Assembly (NCBI RefSeq): GCF_008122505.1
Contig: NZ_VSSB01000001.1
Coordinates: 2,774,891 to 2,838,890, forward strand
From: Agromyces mariniharenae
Lineage (GTDB): Bacteria; Actinomycetota; Actinomycetes; Actinomycetales; Microbacteriaceae
Reading direction: 5' to 3'
DNA length: 64,000 nucleotides
The notes beneath the pieces were generated by a model. It did no database searches, was not told where the DNA came from, and saw nothing but the letters and a program-made list of their open reading frames with translations. How positions within the stretch are numbered: the stretch's first letter is position 1; every line of letters starts with the position of its first letter. Both the position numbers and the translations under genes were made by a program. Below, one piece after another: positions 4,008-20,300 of the stretch.

Positions 4008-4305
4008 GGTTCTGCTTCTCCTTCACCGGCAGGTACGTGCCGGACGATCCGTAGTGAATGGATGAGTGCGTCGCCGTCGACGCCCGCTCAGTATCGCATA
4101 CGCTCAGGCGCGGTCCGAATCGGGGTCGGGCGGCCGGGCCCGAGCCGGCGCGCGACGGAGGGTCCCGACATGGGGTGGACTCCCATGCCGGACGCGGCCC
4201 GCACGCGGCATCCGCTTGGGTGATTCCCAGACACGCTTCCTACTATCGTGGGTGCGTTCGCATGCATTCGCGCGCGCCCACACAGCGACCGGAGTTGACC
4301 ACCTG

Positions 4306-12028: not shown

Positions 12029-12076
12029 TCGTGTCGGGGGCGAGTCGGGGGCTCCCTTCGTCGTGCTCGGGTCTGG

Positions 12077-12236
12077 GCACTCGGGTACTCGGATACTCGG
12101 GCACTCGGGTACACGAGCACTTCGAAACCTCGGAACTCGGGAGCCCCGGCACGTCGGAACTCCGGAACTCCGGACCTTCGTGACTTCGGACCTTCGCAAC
12201 TTCGGAACTTCGGAACGTCGGAACTCGGGAACCGAG
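12077..12236. repeat. Degenerate 8-bp tandem repeat, about 20 units
   Basis: Read from 12077 the sequence divides exactly into twenty contiguous octamers (gcactcgg, gtactcgg, atactcgg ... gaacttcg, gaacgtcg, gaactcgg, gaaccgag) with consensus GAACTTCG/GAACTCGG and no phase slip. It fills most of the non-coding gap between groEL and the WXG100 gene. Apart from this tract and the groEL terminator I see nothing functional in 11966-12321. Confidence 0.9.
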
Positions 12237-15366: not shown

Positions 15367-16047
15367 TCAGTTGGATGAATCGAATGCGCCGGCGATGCGC
15401 AGGCAGCATCCGCCGGCGCCCGGGTCGAGCAGCACTCGATCGGATGCCGCGCCGACCTCATCGGCCATTGCGCACACGAGCGCGTGGTTGAGGTCGCAGA
15501 CGACGCCCGGATGCTGCTGCGCCAGCTTGTGGAACGGGCACGTGCCGAGCACCGTGTCGTCGCCCTCGGCGCGGGGCTCGAAGCCCTCGCGCAGGAGCGC
15601 GACCTCGAGATCGGCGGCCCCGGAGGCAAGTCGATGCCCCGCACGGCTCGCGGCGTCGCGGAGCGCGGCCTTCGGCGAGGCGCCCGCGGCGGCGTGCTCG
15701 ATCGCCTCGGCCATGACGCTGCCCGCCACGGCGTAGAGGCGCCGCGGCACGCTCAGCGCGAACTCGGAATCGCCGCGGCGGTAGAGCTTCGCCGGTCGCC
15801 CGGCGCCGGGGCCCGAGCGGCCGTTCAGGCGCCGGAACTCCACGGCCAGCAGGCCGGCCGCGGCGAGGCGCTCGAGGTGGAAGGCGGCGGTGGACCGCGG
15901 GAGGTCGAGCTCGTGCGCGACGGCCTCGCGAGTGACACCCTCGTCGTGCTCGACCACTGCGGCGTAGACGCGCCGCCGCAGGGGGTCGGCGAGCAGGGCG
16001 GCGGCCGACCAGCGGCCGCCGGCCTCGGGTCCGCCGTCGGATGCCAT
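15367..16047 (-). CDS. Winged-helix regulator with a C-terminal cysteine cluster
   Basis: 226 residues: an N-terminal ArsR-type winged helix (about 15-95, with LPRSTAAFHLERLAAAGLL) and a C-terminal effector domain carrying C170 (TCPFH), C184 (VVCDLNH), C192 and C214-C215 (GAGGCC). Spacing of the first pair (13 residues between) recalls SufR-type Fe-S regulators, so a metal- or Fe-S-sensing repressor is inferred, not shown. It is divergent from the folE operon with about 118 bp between starts and could control it. It lies 41 bp upstream of the two-component genes on the same strand. Confidence 0.75.
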   Translation of the reverse strand: MASDGGPEAGGRWSAAALLADPLRRRVYAAVVEHDEGVTREAVAHELDLPRSTAAFHLERLAAAGLLAVEFRRLNGRSGPGAGRPAKLYRRGDSEFALSVPRRLYAVAGSVMAEAIEHAAAGASPKAALRDAASRAGHRLASGAADLEVALLREGFEPRAEGDDTVLGTCPFHKLAQQHPGVVCDLNHALVCAMADEVGAASDRVLLDPGAGGCCLRIAGAFDSSN

Positions 16048-16077
16048 GACGCGACTCTACTCTAAAAACAGGATCCG

Positions 16078-16106
16078 TTGACAGAAATCGGGGACCGACC
16101 TAGCGT
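16078..16106 (+). promoter_or_regulatory. Promoter of the folE operon
   Basis: TTGACA (16078-16083), a perfect -35 consensus, then a 17-bp spacer and TAGCGT (16101-16106). It lies in the divergent gap 31 bp from the regulator start, so one bound protein could block both directions. Confidence 0.65.
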
Positions 16107-16165
16107 CGATCGCACAGGGTGTCGAGGGCGCAACGGCCGAGGCGGACGCCCGGAGGAGGTGCGGG

Positions 16166-16804
16166 ATGAGCCCGGAGGGAACGCCGGCGATCGTGTCGCT
16201 GCACGCCGTGACCGACGACGAACGGGCGCGTCCCGCCATCGACCGCGACCGCGCGCGGGCCGCCGTCGCCGACCTGCTCATCGCCCTCGGGCAGGACCTC
16301 GACTCGCCGCACCTCGCGGAGACGCCGCGGCGCGCCGCCGACGCGCTCATCGAGCTCCTCACCCCCGAGCCGTTCCGCGCCACGACGTTCCCCAACGACG
16401 AGGGGTGCGACGACCTCGTGGTCGTCGCCGGCATCCCGTTCCACTCGCTCTGCGAGCACCACCTGCTGCCGTTCCGCGGCGTCGCCCACGTCGGGTACCT
16501 GCCCGGCGACCGGCTCGTCGGCCTCTCGAAGCTGGCGCGCATCGTCGAGCAGTCCTCGCGGTCGCTCCAGGTGCAGGAGCGGATGACGCGGCAGCTCGCG
16601 GAGTGGCTCGAGCGCGAGCTCGCACCGCGCGGCACCGGCGTCGTGCTCGAGGCCGAGCATCTCTGCATGTCGCTGCGAGGGCCACGTATCGTGGGCAGCG
16701 TGACCACGACCAGGAGCTTCACCGGGCTCCTCCGAGACGACGAACGCCTCCGCCGCGAGTTCGAGTCGCGGTGCGACGCGCAGGGAATGGAGCGCACGAG
16801 ATGA
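16166..16804 (+). CDS. folE: GTP cyclohydrolase I
   Basis: Converts GTP to 7,8-dihydroneopterin triphosphate, the first step of tetrahydrofolate and other pterin pathways. The zinc ligands are present: C96 and H99 in LCEHHLLPF and C167 in AEHLCMSLRGPR. The catalytic QERMTRQ segment is also intact. At 212 residues it is a standard FolE. GGAGGAGGT lies nine bases before ATG 16166. Its last codons overlap the start of the flavoprotein gene (ATGA). It heads a pterin-related operon instead of the usual ftsH-folE-folP-folB-folK cluster. Confidence 0.95.
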   Translation: MSPEGTPAIVSLHAVTDDERARPAIDRDRARAAVADLLIALGQDLDSPHLAETPRRAADALIELLTPEPFRATTFPNDEGCDDLVVVAGIPFHSLCEHHLLPFRGVAHVGYLPGDRLVGLSKLARIVEQSSRSLQVQERMTRQLAEWLERELAPRGTGVVLEAEHLCMSLRGPRIVGSVTTTRSFTGLLRDDERLRREFESRCDAQGMERTR

Positions 16805-18048
16805 GCAGCGAGCACGGCATCGTCATCGTCGGCGGCGGCCTGGCGGGCGCGCGGGCGGCCGAGGGAGCGCGTGCCGCGGGCTACGACGGGCCCGTACGCA
16901 TCGTCGCGGGCGAGGACGCCATGCCCTACATCCGACCCCCGCTCTCGAAGGAGTTCCTGAACGGCGCCGCCACCCGCGAGTCCGTCGACGTGCACCCCGC
17001 CGAGTGGTACGACGAGCACCGCGTCCAGGTGCTCCGCGGCATCCGTGCGACCGGGCTCGGCCTGCCGGAGCATCGCGTGCGGCTCGACGACGGACGCCAC
17101 CTCGACTACGACCGGCTGCTGCTCGCGACGGGCTCGGCGCCGCGGCACTGGCCGGGCGCCGGCGCCGACCTCGAGGGCGTGCACGTGCTGCGCACGATCG
17201 GCGACTCGATCGCGCTGCGCGACCTGCTCTCGCCGGGCGGTCGTCGCATCGTGCTCATCGGGGCGGGCTGGATCGGGCTCGAGGTCGCGGCCGCCGCGCG
17301 CGGATACGGCAACGAGGTCACGGTCGTGGCGCCCGAGGCGGTGCCGCTCGAGGCCGCGATCGGGCCCGCAGCGGGCGAGGTGTTCGCGCGACTGCACCGC
17401 GAGCACGGCGTCGACCTGCGCATGTCCACGAAGGTCGACGGGATCGTCGGCGCCGACGGACGCGTGACCGGGGTCGCGCTCGAGGGCGGCGAGGTCGTGC
17501 CCGCCGACGCGGTCGTCGTCGGCATCGGCGCCGTGCCGCTCACGGGGCTCGCCGAGGAGGCCGGCATCGAGGTCGACAACGGCGTCGTGACGGATGCCGC
17601 GTTCCGCACGAGTGCCGACGACGTCTACGCCGTGGGCGACGTCGCGAGCGTCTTCCAGCCGTTCCTCGGCGAGCACCTGCGCACCGAGCACTGGGCGACC
17701 GCCGAGAACCAGGGCCCCGCCGCCGGACGCTCCATGGCGGGCGAGGCGGTCGAGTACGACGAGCCGCCCTACTTCTACACCGACCAGTACGATCTCGGCA
17801 TGGAGTACTCGGGCTACGGGCCCCTCATGGCGGGCGTCGAGCCCGTGTTCCGGGGCGACGTGCCCGGGCGCGAGTTCATCGCCTTCTGGCTCGCCGACCA
17901 CCGGGTCGTGGCGGGCATGAACGTCAACGTGTGGGACGTGAACGAGCAGGTGCAGGAGTTCATCCGCTCGCGTGCCCGCGTCGACGTCGACCGGCTGGTC
18001 GACCCGGCGATCCCGCTCGAGGTCGTGCTCCGCGAGGCCACCGCATGA
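16801..18048 (+). CDS. FAD-dependent oxidoreductase, ferredoxin-reductase-like
   Basis: 415 residues: an FAD-binding Rossmann motif at the N-terminus (VIVGGGLAGARAAEG), an NAD(P)H-binding Rossmann motif (VLIGAGWIGLEVA, about 155), the FAD-contact DVYAVGDVAS (about 276) and a C-terminal Reductase_C-like domain. This is the organisation of NADH:ferredoxin or rubredoxin reductases that feed electrons to monooxygenases. No ferredoxin or oxygenase gene is nearby. It overlaps folE upstream and a nine-codon minigene downstream by 4-bp ATGA junctions, so it belongs to the pterin operon. Confidence 0.9.
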   Translation: MSSEHGIVIVGGGLAGARAAEGARAAGYDGPVRIVAGEDAMPYIRPPLSKEFLNGAATRESVDVHPAEWYDEHRVQVLRGIRATGLGLPEHRVRLDDGRHLDYDRLLLATGSAPRHWPGAGADLEGVHVLRTIGDSIALRDLLSPGGRRIVLIGAGWIGLEVAAAARGYGNEVTVVAPEAVPLEAAIGPAAGEVFARLHREHGVDLRMSTKVDGIVGADGRVTGVALEGGEVVPADAVVVGIGAVPLTGLAEEAGIEVDNGVVTDAAFRTSADDVYAVGDVASVFQPFLGEHLRTEHWATAENQGPAAGRSMAGEAVEYDEPPYFYTDQYDLGMEYSGYGPLMAGVEPVFRGDVPGREFIAFWLADHRVVAGMNVNVWDVNEQVQEFIRSRARVDVDRLVDPAIPLEVVLREATA

Positions 18049-18074
18049 GCCGTTCCTCCTGGGCCGCGGCGTGA
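18045..18074 (+). CDS. Nine-codon minigene linking two operon genes
   Basis: ATG at 18045 overlaps the flavoprotein stop (ATGA). The frame MSRSSWAAA ends in a TGA that overlaps the GTG start of the FolP2-like gene (GTGA). The octamer TGAGCCG(T/C) occurs at both junctions, 26 bp apart, so a small duplication may have created it. Whether it is translated as a coupling peptide is unknown. Confidence 0.35.
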   Translation: MSRSSWAAA

Positions 18075-18991
18075 GCCGCCCGCTCGGCTGGGTCGAGCCC
18101 GAGTACGCGCACCCGGTGCGCCGCATCGCCGGACGTGACGTCGACTTCCGGCGGACGATCGCGGTCATGGCCGTCGTGAACCGCACGCCCGACTCGTTCT
18201 ACGACCGCGGCGCGACGTTCGGGCTCGACGCGGCGGTCGCCGCGGGCCGCCGCGCCGTCGAGCAGGGCGCCGCGTGGATCGACATCGGCGGCGCGAGGTT
18301 CGGCCCCGGCCCGGCGATCCCCGTCGAGGAGGAGATCGACCGCGTGGTGCCCGTCGTCGAGGCGCTCGCCGGTGCGGGCGCGGCGCTCTCGGTCGACACG
18401 TTCCACGCCGAGGTCGCGGCGGCGGCGATCGCCGCCGGAGCGCACGTGATCAACGACACCACGGGCCTGCACGACCCGGCGCTCGCCGATGTCGTCGCGG
18501 CATCCGATGCGACGCTCGTGATCACGCACAGCCGGGCCGAGCCGCGGCAGTGGTTCCCGCGGCCCGAGTACGACGACGTGGTCGCCGAGGTCGCCGCGTT
18601 CCTCGAGGAGCGCACCGCGCTCGCCGTGGCGCACGGGGTGCCCGAGGAGCGCATCGTGCTCGATCCGGGCCACGACCTCAACAAGAACACCCGGCACAGC
18701 CTCGAGCTCACGCGCCGCTTCGGCGAACTCACCCGGCTCGGGTTCCCGCTCGTGGCGGCCGTCTCGAACAAGGACTTCGTCGGCGAGGCGCTTGGCCGCC
18801 CGCGCGAGGAGCGGCTGGCGGGCTCGCTCGCGGCGGCGGTGTTCTGCGCGACCCAGGGTGCGCGCATCCTGCGCATGCACAACGTGCCCGAGTCGGTCGA
18901 CGCGGCACGCATGGTCGAGGCGATCATGGGCTGGCGCGAGCCCGCGCACCTGAAGCACAACGTTGTCGACGGACCGAACGAGGAGTCATGA
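18071..18991 (+). CDS. FolP2-like protein of the dihydropteroate synthase family
   Basis: A 306-residue TIM-barrel pterin-binding protein. The family signature appears as AVVNRTPDSFYDRGATF, where canonical synthase has NVTPDSFSDGG; the R and the YDRG variant match mycobacterial FolP2 (Rv1207 type), reported not to act as the canonical dihydropteroate synthase. Pterin-site residues in SVDTF and IND, and the late LRMHNV motif, are retained. Start GTG 18071 is coupled to the minigene. Located between folE and a DHFR-fold reductase, it may condense or bind a pterin other than the normal folate precursor. That is inference. Confidence 0.82.
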   Translation: MSRPLGWVEPEYAHPVRRIAGRDVDFRRTIAVMAVVNRTPDSFYDRGATFGLDAAVAAGRRAVEQGAAWIDIGGARFGPGPAIPVEEEIDRVVPVVEALAGAGAALSVDTFHAEVAAAAIAAGAHVINDTTGLHDPALADVVAASDATLVITHSRAEPRQWFPRPEYDDVVAEVAAFLEERTALAVAHGVPEERIVLDPGHDLNKNTRHSLELTRRFGELTRLGFPLVAAVSNKDFVGEALGRPREERLAGSLAAAVFCATQGARILRMHNVPESVDAARMVEAIMGWREPAHLKHNVVDGPNEES

Positions 18992-19701
18992 GCGCACCGA
19001 CGCGGGAGCAGCTGCTCGAGGCCTACGCGATCGACGACCGGGCAACGCCCGCCGTGCGCATGAACTTCGTGATGAGCCTCGACGGGGCCGTCACGCTCGA
19101 GGGTCGCAGCGGCGGCCTGGGCGACGAGCACGACCGGCTCGCGATGCAGGTGCTGCGCACGCTCGCCGACGTGGTGCTGATCGGCGCCGGCACGGTGCGC
19201 GTCGAGGGCTACGGCGGGCTGCAGGTCGGCGAGGCGGATGCCGCGTGGCGGCGCGCGAACGGACTCGCCGCGCAGCCCAGGGTCGCCGTGGTGTCGTCGC
19301 GTCTCGACCTCTCGCCCGGGCATCCGTTCTTCGCGGACGCGGTCGAGCGTCCGATCGTGGTGACCCACGCCGCGGCGCCCGCGGATCGGCGCGAGGCGCT
19401 CGCCGAGGTCGCCGACGTGCTCGTCGGCGGCGCGGCATCCGTCGACGTGCGCGAGATGGTCGACGCGCTCGCCGAGGCCGGGCTGCCACAGGTGCTGTGC
19501 GAGGGCGGACCGCACCTGTTCGGCTCGCTCATCGAGGCCGACCGCGTCGACGAGCTGTGCCTGAGCCTCAGTCCGCTGCTCGTCGCGGGTGCGGCGGGGC
19601 GGATCGTGCGCGGCGCGCCAGAGGTCGAGCGGGCGATGCGGCTCGTGCACGCGATCCCGGCGGGGGACCTGCTGCTGCTGCGGTATTCGCGCCGGCGCTG
19701 A
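18988..19701 (+). CDS. RibD_C-type reductase resembling Rv2671
   Basis: A 237-residue DHFR-fold reductase of the RibD C-terminal family without the deaminase domain. Motifs are MNFVMSLDGAVTLEGRSGG (substrate and cofactor entry), LIGAGTVRVEGYGG, and LCEGGPHLFGSL (NADPH site). These match mycobacterial Rv2671, which is annotated as a riboflavin reductase but has been shown to reduce dihydrofolate. The ATG overlaps the upstream stop (ATGA) with GAGGAG just before it. As last gene of the folE operon it could supply a reduced pterin or folate, or act in flavin synthesis. Confidence 0.85.
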   Translation: MSAPTREQLLEAYAIDDRATPAVRMNFVMSLDGAVTLEGRSGGLGDEHDRLAMQVLRTLADVVLIGAGTVRVEGYGGLQVGEADAAWRRANGLAAQPRVAVVSSRLDLSPGHPFFADAVERPIVVTHAAAPADRREALAEVADVLVGGAASVDVREMVDALAEAGLPQVLCEGGPHLFGSLIEADRVDELCLSLSPLLVAGAAGRIVRGAPEVERAMRLVHAIPAGDLLLLRYSRRR

Positions 19702-19703
19702 GC

Positions 19704-20300
19704 TCAGCGCACCGGCCGGTACACGAGGTGCGTCACGAGCGACGTGCCGCGTGCCGACACCTGCTCGAACCGCTGCCGCGGGACGCCCTCGAAGAGGCGC
19801 TCGCCGGCGCCGAGGACGGCCGGCGAGACGTGCACGCGCAGCTCGTCGATGAGGCCGGCGGCGAGGAACTGGTTCACGGTCGACGCGCCGCCCGCGACCG
19901 CGACGTTGCGCTCGCCCGCCGCCGCGCGTGCCCGCTCGAGCGCCGCGTGGATGCCATCGGTCACGAAGTGGAACGTGGTGCCGCCCTCCATGGGGACCGG
20001 CTCGCGCTCCCGATGCCCGAGCACGAACACGGGTCCGTGGTACGGCGGCTCGTCGCCCCACCACCCCTTCCAGTCGAGGTCCCACTCGCCGCGGTCGGGT
20101 CCGAACATGTTGCGGCCCATGATGAACGCGCCCGCGTCGACGATGGCGTCGACCTCGGCCCGGTTCTCGTCGGCCGCGTCGAACATCCAGGCGTGCAGCC
20201 AGCCCTCGTCGATGTCGCCGAGCGGCTGCTCGAGGCTCTGGTCGATCCCGGCTGAGTAGCCGTCCATGGAGACGGAGATGTCGCACGTGACGATGGGCAT
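19704..20300 (-). CDS. Dihydrofolate-reductase-family protein
   Basis: A 198-residue DHFR-fold protein of the YyaP/RibD_C type: ISVSMDGYSAG at the N-terminus, FIMGRNMFGPD in the middle and VAGGASTVNQFLAAGLIDEL as the NADPH-site segment. A strong GAGGAGG lies six bases before ATG 20300. It converges with the Rv2671-like gene with only 2 bp between stops, so two distinct DHFR-fold reductases meet tail to tail. The substrate is unknown; members of this family are often orphan reductases. Confidence 0.87.
   Translation of the reverse strand: MPIVTCDISVSMDGYSAGIDQSLEQPLGDIDEGWLHAWMFDAADENRAEVDAIVDAGAFIMGRNMFGPDRGEWDLDWKGWWGDEPPYHGPVFVLGHREREPVPMEGGTTFHFVTDGIHAALERARAAAGERNVAVAGGASTVNQFLAAGLIDELRVHVSPAVLGAGERLFEGVPRQRFEQVSARGTSLVTHLVYRPVR

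Follow-up and report, generated by a model that had tools for sequence, protein, structure and literature searches.

A FolP2-RibDC gene pair joined to a regulator-bearing GTP cyclohydrolase cassette in Agromyces mariniharenae suggests a second pterin branch in Microbacteriaceae

The window analysed here, a 64,000-nucleotide stretch (G000:C1:2774891-2838890) of the 4.08-Mb genome of Agromyces mariniharenae, carries an operon in which a GTP cyclohydrolase I gene (folE) is followed by the genes of a flavoprotein reductase (FDR), of a second and altered dihydropteroate synthase (DHPS) paralogue (folP2) and of a reductase of the RibD_C fold (RibDC), divergent from the gene of a Cys-rich regulator (REG). 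Protein families were assigned by Pfam, NCBIfam and PDB sequence searches, and genes were called with a simple codon model built for this analysis (Table 1). An earlier reading based on the letters and open reading frames (ORFs) of the window, henceforth the sequence-only reading, had described stop-to-start overlaps between these genes, and the ORF ends together with the sequence confirmed all of them (ATGA at 16801, 18045 and 18988, GTGA at 18071). A 9-codon ORF runs from the ATG at 18045 to 18074, and the GTG start of FolP2 at 18071 sits at that stop; this short frame probably serves translational coupling only. The five-gene order, which that reading had proposed to look for in relatives, does recur in Microbacteriaceae, at 10 of 61 FolP2 loci (the window counted among the ten, and one of them with an extra DoxX-like gene), but as a minority form. 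It is a lineage-specific fusion and not the conserved unit: what is gained and lost together within genera is the pair of folP2 and RibDC.

The evidence for this joint inheritance comes from 120 Microbacteriaceae genomes, among which FolP2 of the window's clade was found in 62 and a strong RibDC match in 61. Both genes are present, and adjacent, in 61 genomes; FolP2 occurs without RibDC in one (G062), RibDC without FolP2 in none, and 58 genomes have neither. Seven genera (g15, g17, g22, g36, g38, g49 and g50) were each sampled with a species that has both genes and another that lacks both, and an eighth (g42) shows the same joint switch, resting on one 77% complete genome. Such switches within genera are safer evidence than Fisher p values for co-occurrence, which overstate significance because related genomes are not independent and the samples are phylogenetically structured. 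The genome lists behind these counts were compiled by hand from separate searches; a FolP2 split over two frames (G006) and a folE in two pieces (G009) were kept as they are. At the family loci (the window plus 60 others; the FolP2 of G099 is not among them, its adjacency having been read from coordinates) RibDC follows FolP2 in 60 cases out of 61. The same order is found at 66 of 80 loci in a named set that includes Micrococcaceae and other families (the best 80 of 591) and that shares at least four genomes with the family loci (L189=L043, L190=L047, L195=L063, L246=L082). No FolP2-RibD_C fusion protein appeared among the best 120 of 2853 matches. The open-licence literature offered nothing to the point on a FolP2-RibD_C operon combination, the papers there treating single genes.

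Table 1. Features of the folE-FDR-folP2-RibDC operon and its surroundings, in window positions.
Feature	Position	Strand	Basis or remark
REG, Cys-rich ArsR-type winged-helix regulator	15367-16047	-	HTH_20; divergent from folE
Predicted REG operator, TCTAAAA-N10-TTGAC	16061-16082	+	overlaps folE -35 box
Predicted folE promoter: TTGACA 16078-16083, 17-bp spacer, TAGCGT 16101-16106	16078-16106	+	read from sequence
folE, GTP cyclohydrolase I, REG-linked clade	16166-16804	+	PF01227, NF006826 above cut-off; tree
FDR, FAD/NAD(P) reductase, putidaredoxin-reductase/BphA4 type	16801-18048	+	PF07992, PF14759 above cut-off
9-codon ORF bridging FDR and FolP2	18045-18074	+	sequence
folP2, altered dihydropteroate-synthase paralogue	18071-18991	+	PF00809, TIGR01496; best PDB 2vp8
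RibDC, RibD_C-fold reductase, Rv2671 type	18988-19701	+	PF01872; best PDB 4xrb
Converging second RibD_C protein	19704-20300	-	PF01872; 2 bp between stops

Besides the operon, whose FolP2 lies near 2.793 Mb, the same genome has a complete folate cluster (ftsH-folE-folP-folB-folK, by NCBIfam recognition) near 2.489 Mb, about 300 kb away, and the operon is therefore a second pterin locus. The genes folB and folK, which had been noted as absent, are indeed missing from the operon but present in this cluster; where the folate clusters of genomes with a REG-type folE at the folP2 locus were read, all ten were complete. Like a canonical folE-folP-folB-folK cluster, the operon sets folE next to a gene of the FolP family; it differs by the lack of folB and folK, the other FolE clade, FolP2 in the place of FolP1, and the additional reductase and dedicated regulator. 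The sequence-only reading had named a canonical cluster elsewhere, with the operon as its ordinary duplicate, as the outcome that would speak against it. The cluster does exist, but the FolE of the operon belongs to a deeply separate clade and its FolP2 is no copy of DHPS. In a tree of 58 FolE proteins the housekeeping and REG-linked clades are parted by a branch of 1.8 with support of 100/100, the window FolE falling in the latter; a smaller tree gives the same split, except that L036 is placed next to the housekeeping clade. Ordinary duplication, with a surplus folE and folP retained for dosage among chance neighbours, would agree with the full folate cluster in this genome and with NCBIfam, which names the window FolP2 a DHPS above its cut-off. 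We nevertheless consider such duplication very unlikely in view of the deep FolE split, the FolP2-specific invariant residues and missing DHPS loop described below, and the 61/1/0/58 distribution of the pair.

The FolE proteins encoded ahead of folP2 come from both sides of this tree. While the window represents the REG-linked clade, 10 of 35 such FolEs (from Curtobacterium, Glaciihabitans and relatives) are nested in the housekeeping clade. The FolE in front of folP2 is the sole FolE of seven genomes (G004, G031, G087, G105, G110, G096 and G118), and the folate clusters of five of these, when fetched, all read ftsH-folP-folB-folK with no folE. The sole FolE of G096 and G118 is of the REG-linked clade, and the zinc-independent GTP cyclohydrolase FolE2 (PF02649) was not found in any of 12 genomes tested; for these two reasons proteins of the REG-linked clade very likely function as GTP cyclohydrolase I. 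The window protein matches PF01227 with 187.4 bits (cut-off 27) and passes NF006826, and is below the equivalog cut-off of TIGR00063 (161 vs 181.6). Residues C96, H98, H99, H165 and C167, presumably the zinc and catalytic Cys/His, are kept in 11/11. A motif H-x-C-M-x-x-R-G is present in 29/29 of the FolEs closest to the window protein and in 0/20 of those closest to the FolE of the canonical folate cluster, which mostly read H-x-C-V. No other observation speaks as strongly for FolP2-RibDC acting downstream of GTP cyclohydrolase as the arrival of two folE lineages in front of this one pair.

REG and its FolE also form a cassette of their own. Among 17 places scoring above 130 bits for REG in the family sample, 16 have a neighbouring FolE: in 13 it is divergent and directly or almost directly next to REG, in two a DoxX-like gene intervenes (G064, G069), and in one REG and FolE occupy opposite ends of one operon (G016). 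The only place without a nearby FolE is the second copy in G006, and in G001, G028, G085 and G103 the REG-FolE unit stands apart from FolP2. Of 29 class REG loci, read for about 1.5 kb on each side, 10 have FolE and 16 a DoxX-like membrane gene. In 20 wider class stretches (3.3-14 kb) the arrangement of REG opposite DoxX-like, FolE and FDR genes recurs, whole or in part, and FolP2 is absent from the genes listed around REG, ten at most per stretch. Because this pattern recurs class-wide in such company, the window is seen to join two modules, FolP2-RibDC and REG-FolE-FDR. At these class loci (L129-L157 and L158-L177), away from FolP2, the gene of an ArsR-type regulator rich in Cys stands opposite genes for a DoxX-like membrane protein, FolE and a flavoprotein reductase, a unit found across the class. 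In the open-licence literature nothing was found on a combination of GTP cyclohydrolase, DoxX and regulator.

The flavoprotein of this cassette has its best PDB matches in 3lxd and 1q1r and shows the Pyr_redox_2 plus Reductase_C combination of ferredoxin reductases of the BphA4/putidaredoxin type. The genes named in the vicinity of the operon include no ferredoxin; no genome-wide search for one was made. FDR precedes FolP2 at 26 of the 61 family loci, 15 of them lacking FolE, and the FDR tree mixes FolE-bearing and FolE-less loci with at least seven changes; FolE and REG therefore come and go while FDR-FolP2-RibDC stays. Judged by its position only, FDR might be the electron donor of the branch.

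REG was modelled with a pLDDT of 90.8, and structural alignment identifies its N-terminal half (mostly residues 3-104) as an ArsR-like winged helix. Five cysteines had been singled out before, of which 170, 184, 214 and 215 do not vary among 44 aligned regulators (that of the window included), but 192 is kept in 4 of 18. The source of the 44 was a list restricted to sequences with the CPF motif, a filter that dropped none of the 29 class loci, and L119, L151 and L153 were left out of the alignment. The protein stays below the NCBIfam metalloregulator cut-off (25.5 bits vs 55). Its named homologues of greatest identity are Agromyces proteins. It resembles SufR- and ArsR-type Cys regulators in joining a winged helix to a C-terminal Cys motif, but its pattern, C170-x13-C184-x29-C214-C215, differs from the four-Cys spacing of SufR, C-x12-C-x13-C-x14-C. 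REG may sense an Fe-S cluster or a metal, and the redox or Fe-S control put forward in the sequence-only reading is a possibility.

A candidate binding site for REG was found between its gene and the neighbouring one. The pattern TCTAAAA-N8-12-TTGAC occurs in 18/26 such intergenic regions from family or named loci and in 5/24 from class loci, and in none of 200 shuffles; the promoter-like TTGAC-N17-19-TANNNT occurs in 25/26 and 10/24, respectively (shuffles at most 2/50), these regions having also been chosen by the CPF motif of REG. Neither the window (0 matches in 100 shuffles) nor the whole genome has any match besides the predicted operator in front of folE. Over 24 genomes the pattern gave 13 matches, 11 of them at a REG gene, and the reversed control pattern gave 3. 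Ten of the 11 are also at the start of FolE or DoxX-FolE and one is at the second G006 copy, while the two away from any REG gene (G064, G089) may be due to chance. It had no match in seven genomes chosen for lacking a strong REG, two of which (G057, G078) have weak REG matches. A generic promoter scan returned none at folE, the predicted -10 box being too weak for it. The placement of the predicted operator over the folE -35 box suggests repression by REG.

We compared 73 FolP2 sequences (20 from the class and those 53 of the 61 family proteins that were called by the gene finder and scored above 300 bits) with 15 FolP1, all from Microbacteriaceae. N37, N128, D198, K234, R268 and H270 are found in 73/73 FolP2 and 15/15 FolP1, and D109 in 72/73 and 15/15; we assign these to the DHPS pterin pocket and pyrophosphate site, with R268 and H270 as its pyrophosphate-binding Arg and His. 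The loop-2 motif E-S-T-R of FolP1 (15/15) is lost in FolP2, where its Thr and its Arg are each kept in 0/73, and the SRK of FolP1 has become SNK in 67/73 (N233). Conversely, R38 and D202 are present in 73/73 FolP2 and 0/15 FolP1, and R215 and E239 in 73/73, but in only 1/15 and 4/15 FolP1. Such conservation is easier to reconcile with a working enzyme that uses a different acceptor than with a relic. One could also imagine FolP2 as a non-catalytic pterin or folate binder (a carrier, a sensor or a salvage protein) in a repair and recycling unit, where RibDC, a predicted reductase, reduces oxidised pterins or folates and FDR is a further reductase. The frequency of FDR before FolP2, also where FolE is lacking, and the want of an acceptor gene constant among the neighbours read are what such a unit might leave behind. 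We think it quite unlikely, as a mere binder would not need R268 and H270, and the recruitment of folE points to de novo supply.

The window FolP2 belongs to the FolP2 clade, and its best PDB match is DHPS 2 of Mycobacterium tuberculosis (Rv1207, 2vp8), with which it shares the NRTPDSFYD, GPG and SNKD motifs and the condition of being a second folP beside a normal one. It differs in being part of an operon with a reductase, FDR and FolE, genes that in other actinobacterial families are mostly apart. The role of FolP2 has been in question since the report that it does not replace DHPS. M. leprae folP2 failed to complement an E. coli folP mutant (PMC1971073), and M. tuberculosis FolP2 was predicted to be defective in dihydropteroate synthesis (PMC7809127).

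For RibDC the closest solved protein is Rv2671 (PDB 4xrb, E 1.2e-41), a protein that is called a dihydrofolate reductase in papers citing the original work. Reductases of this type are known mainly as stand-ins for dihydrofolate reductase. A simulation study lists Asn32, Asp55 and Glu181 as antifolate contacts (PMC10530724). By a constant shift of 12 we infer that these are N44, D67 and E193 of the 4xrb chain, whose equivalents in the window protein, N26, D49 and E172, are kept in 61/62, 62/62 and 62/62 sequences, a conservation consistent with, but not diagnostic of, an Rv2671-like role. RibDC differs from Rv2671 in being joined to folP2 and in scoring below the curated NCBIfam cut-offs for pyrimidine reductases, with 181.7 bits (E 1.9e-53, cut-off 226) and 176.3 bits (cut-off 184) for PRK14059. 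The family name and the fold would both suit a riboflavin-pathway reductase, so that the pair would link riboflavin and folate synthesis. This we hold to be extremely unlikely, given that a separate, full bifunctional RibD was found elsewhere in 30/30 genomes tested, with or without the pair.

In Pfam, RibDC matches PF01872 only and not the FolA family PF00186. A FolA match was found in 62 of the 120 Microbacteriaceae genomes, more commonly in those with the pair (43/62) than in those without it (19/58), and a general role of RibDC as a stand-in for FolA is accordingly not supported. Since neither the pair nor a PF00186 match is found in 39 genomes, absence of such a match cannot be read as a need for RibDC. 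As an observation in its own right, canonical FolA went undetected in 58/120 genomes, all but two of which have a FolP match.

These data bear on the idea of a back-up folate route for times of antifolate exposure or folate shortage, with FolP2 as a weak or drug-insensitive DHPS and RibDC as a dihydrofolate reductase. The activity ascribed to Rv2671 would fit it, as would the 19 of 62 FolP2 genomes with no FolA match and the higher sulfamethoxazole susceptibility that followed deletion of folP2 in a mycobacterium, described in the context of M. tuberculosis FolP2 (PMC7809127). We judge it unlikely, considering the loss of the loop-2 Thr and Arg in every FolP2 compared, the failed complementation by the M. 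leprae gene, the association of FolA with the pair rather than with its absence, and the complete folate cluster of the window's genome.

Taken together, FolP2-RibDC probably works in a pterin pathway; that it makes a conjugate other than folate is a more tentative proposal, somewhat below even chances. The dedicated pterin branch fed from GTP that the sequence-only reading had put forward is supported by the joint gain and loss of FolP2 and RibDC and by the folE genes of two lineages, and that interpretation as a whole is borne out in part. We picture, with nearly even confidence, a folate-like side branch in which FolP2 would make a dihydropterin conjugate without p-aminobenzoate and RibDC would reduce it. 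FolE would convert GTP to 7,8-dihydroneopterin triphosphate, and the housekeeping FolB and FolK encoded elsewhere would supply 6-hydroxymethyl-dihydropterin pyrophosphate. FolP2 would bind this compound as DHPS does and move the pterin to an acceptor other than p-aminobenzoate, after which RibDC may use NADPH to reduce the resulting dihydropterin to its tetrahydro form, in parallel to the FolP-FolA pair. In the lineage of the window, where the pair is fused to the REG-FolE-FDR cassette, REG bound at the folE -35 box could control pterin supply and branch together. A comparable coupling of a FolP-type synthase to the next reduction is mentioned in PMC1971073 for the bifunctional DHPS/flavin-dependent dihydropteroate reductase of Helicobacter pylori, but there one fused protein makes true folate, whereas in the window the two functions are on separate proteins, the reductase has a different fold and FolP is altered. 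It is possible, and no more than tentatively proposed, that the product is a tetrahydropterin cofactor distinct from folate, with FolP2 and the Rv2671-type reductase, both widespread in actinobacteria, as consecutive enzymes, in some lineages under a Cys-rich (Fe-S/metal) regulator.

Several observations weigh against this pathway. Outside Microbacteriaceae FolP2 and RibDC are mostly unlinked, RibDC following closely in 5 of 20 class loci, and at the thresholds used 197 Actinomycetia genomes divide into 139 with both, 17 with FolP2 and no RibDC, 16 with RibDC and no FolP2, and 25 with neither. FolP2 is likewise without RibDC in G062, L216 and L229. Within the family folE stands beside the pair at 19 of 61 loci only, and 42 are without it. 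N26, D49 and E172 of RibDC lie partly in motifs common to RibD_C proteins and do not single out a pterin substrate. Finally, 6 of 17 REG-bearing genomes have no exact operator match, so the operator pattern is incomplete. At several other class loci FolP2 is near DapE-, LOG- and TagI-like genes (names read from the sequences), in line with the clustering of folP2 with cell-wall genes in high-GC Gram-positives, for which PMC1971073 suggests another pathway.

In many soil actinobacteria the normal folate genes are accompanied by a small additional set of pterin genes, and the pairing of FolP2 with a folate-type reductase offers a testable lead on what FolP2 does. Joint inheritance and the folE linkage from two lineages merge the questions about FolP2 and about Rv2671-type reductases into one pathway hypothesis, and a second pterin cofactor, if true, would bear on antifolate action in actinobacteria.

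No third conserved pathway gene emerged, the neighbours of FolP2-RibDC varying by lineage with none constant among those read. Ten neighbour proteins were scanned, eight from next to or near FolP2 in Microbacteriaceae and two copies of one gene from other families. The former matched GNAT acetyltransferases, a glycine-transporter family, LuxS, RraA-like or AlkA-like proteins, or nothing. The latter gene encodes a small protein between FolP2 and RibDC (L099, L100 and L101, also L094), and one of the two copies tested had a weak LigB match (E 0.046), the other none. In one relative a LuxS gene overlaps the end of RibDC (L079:8530-8997). The second RibD_C gene of the window, reported to converge on RibDC at 2 bp, is confirmed at that distance; it was rejected as a component of the system, being present at 2 of 61 FolP2 loci. 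A histidine kinase and a response regulator flank the locus on one side and an XPB helicase on the other, flanks common to many relatives (response regulator upstream at 38/61 and XPB downstream at 34/61 FolP2 loci).

Elsewhere in the window, short imperfect 8-bp tandem repeats occupy positions 12066-12225, between the region of a WXG100-like gene and a groEL-like gene, and an msiK RNA element (Rfam RF01747, 63 bits) lies at 4013-4070 on the minus strand.

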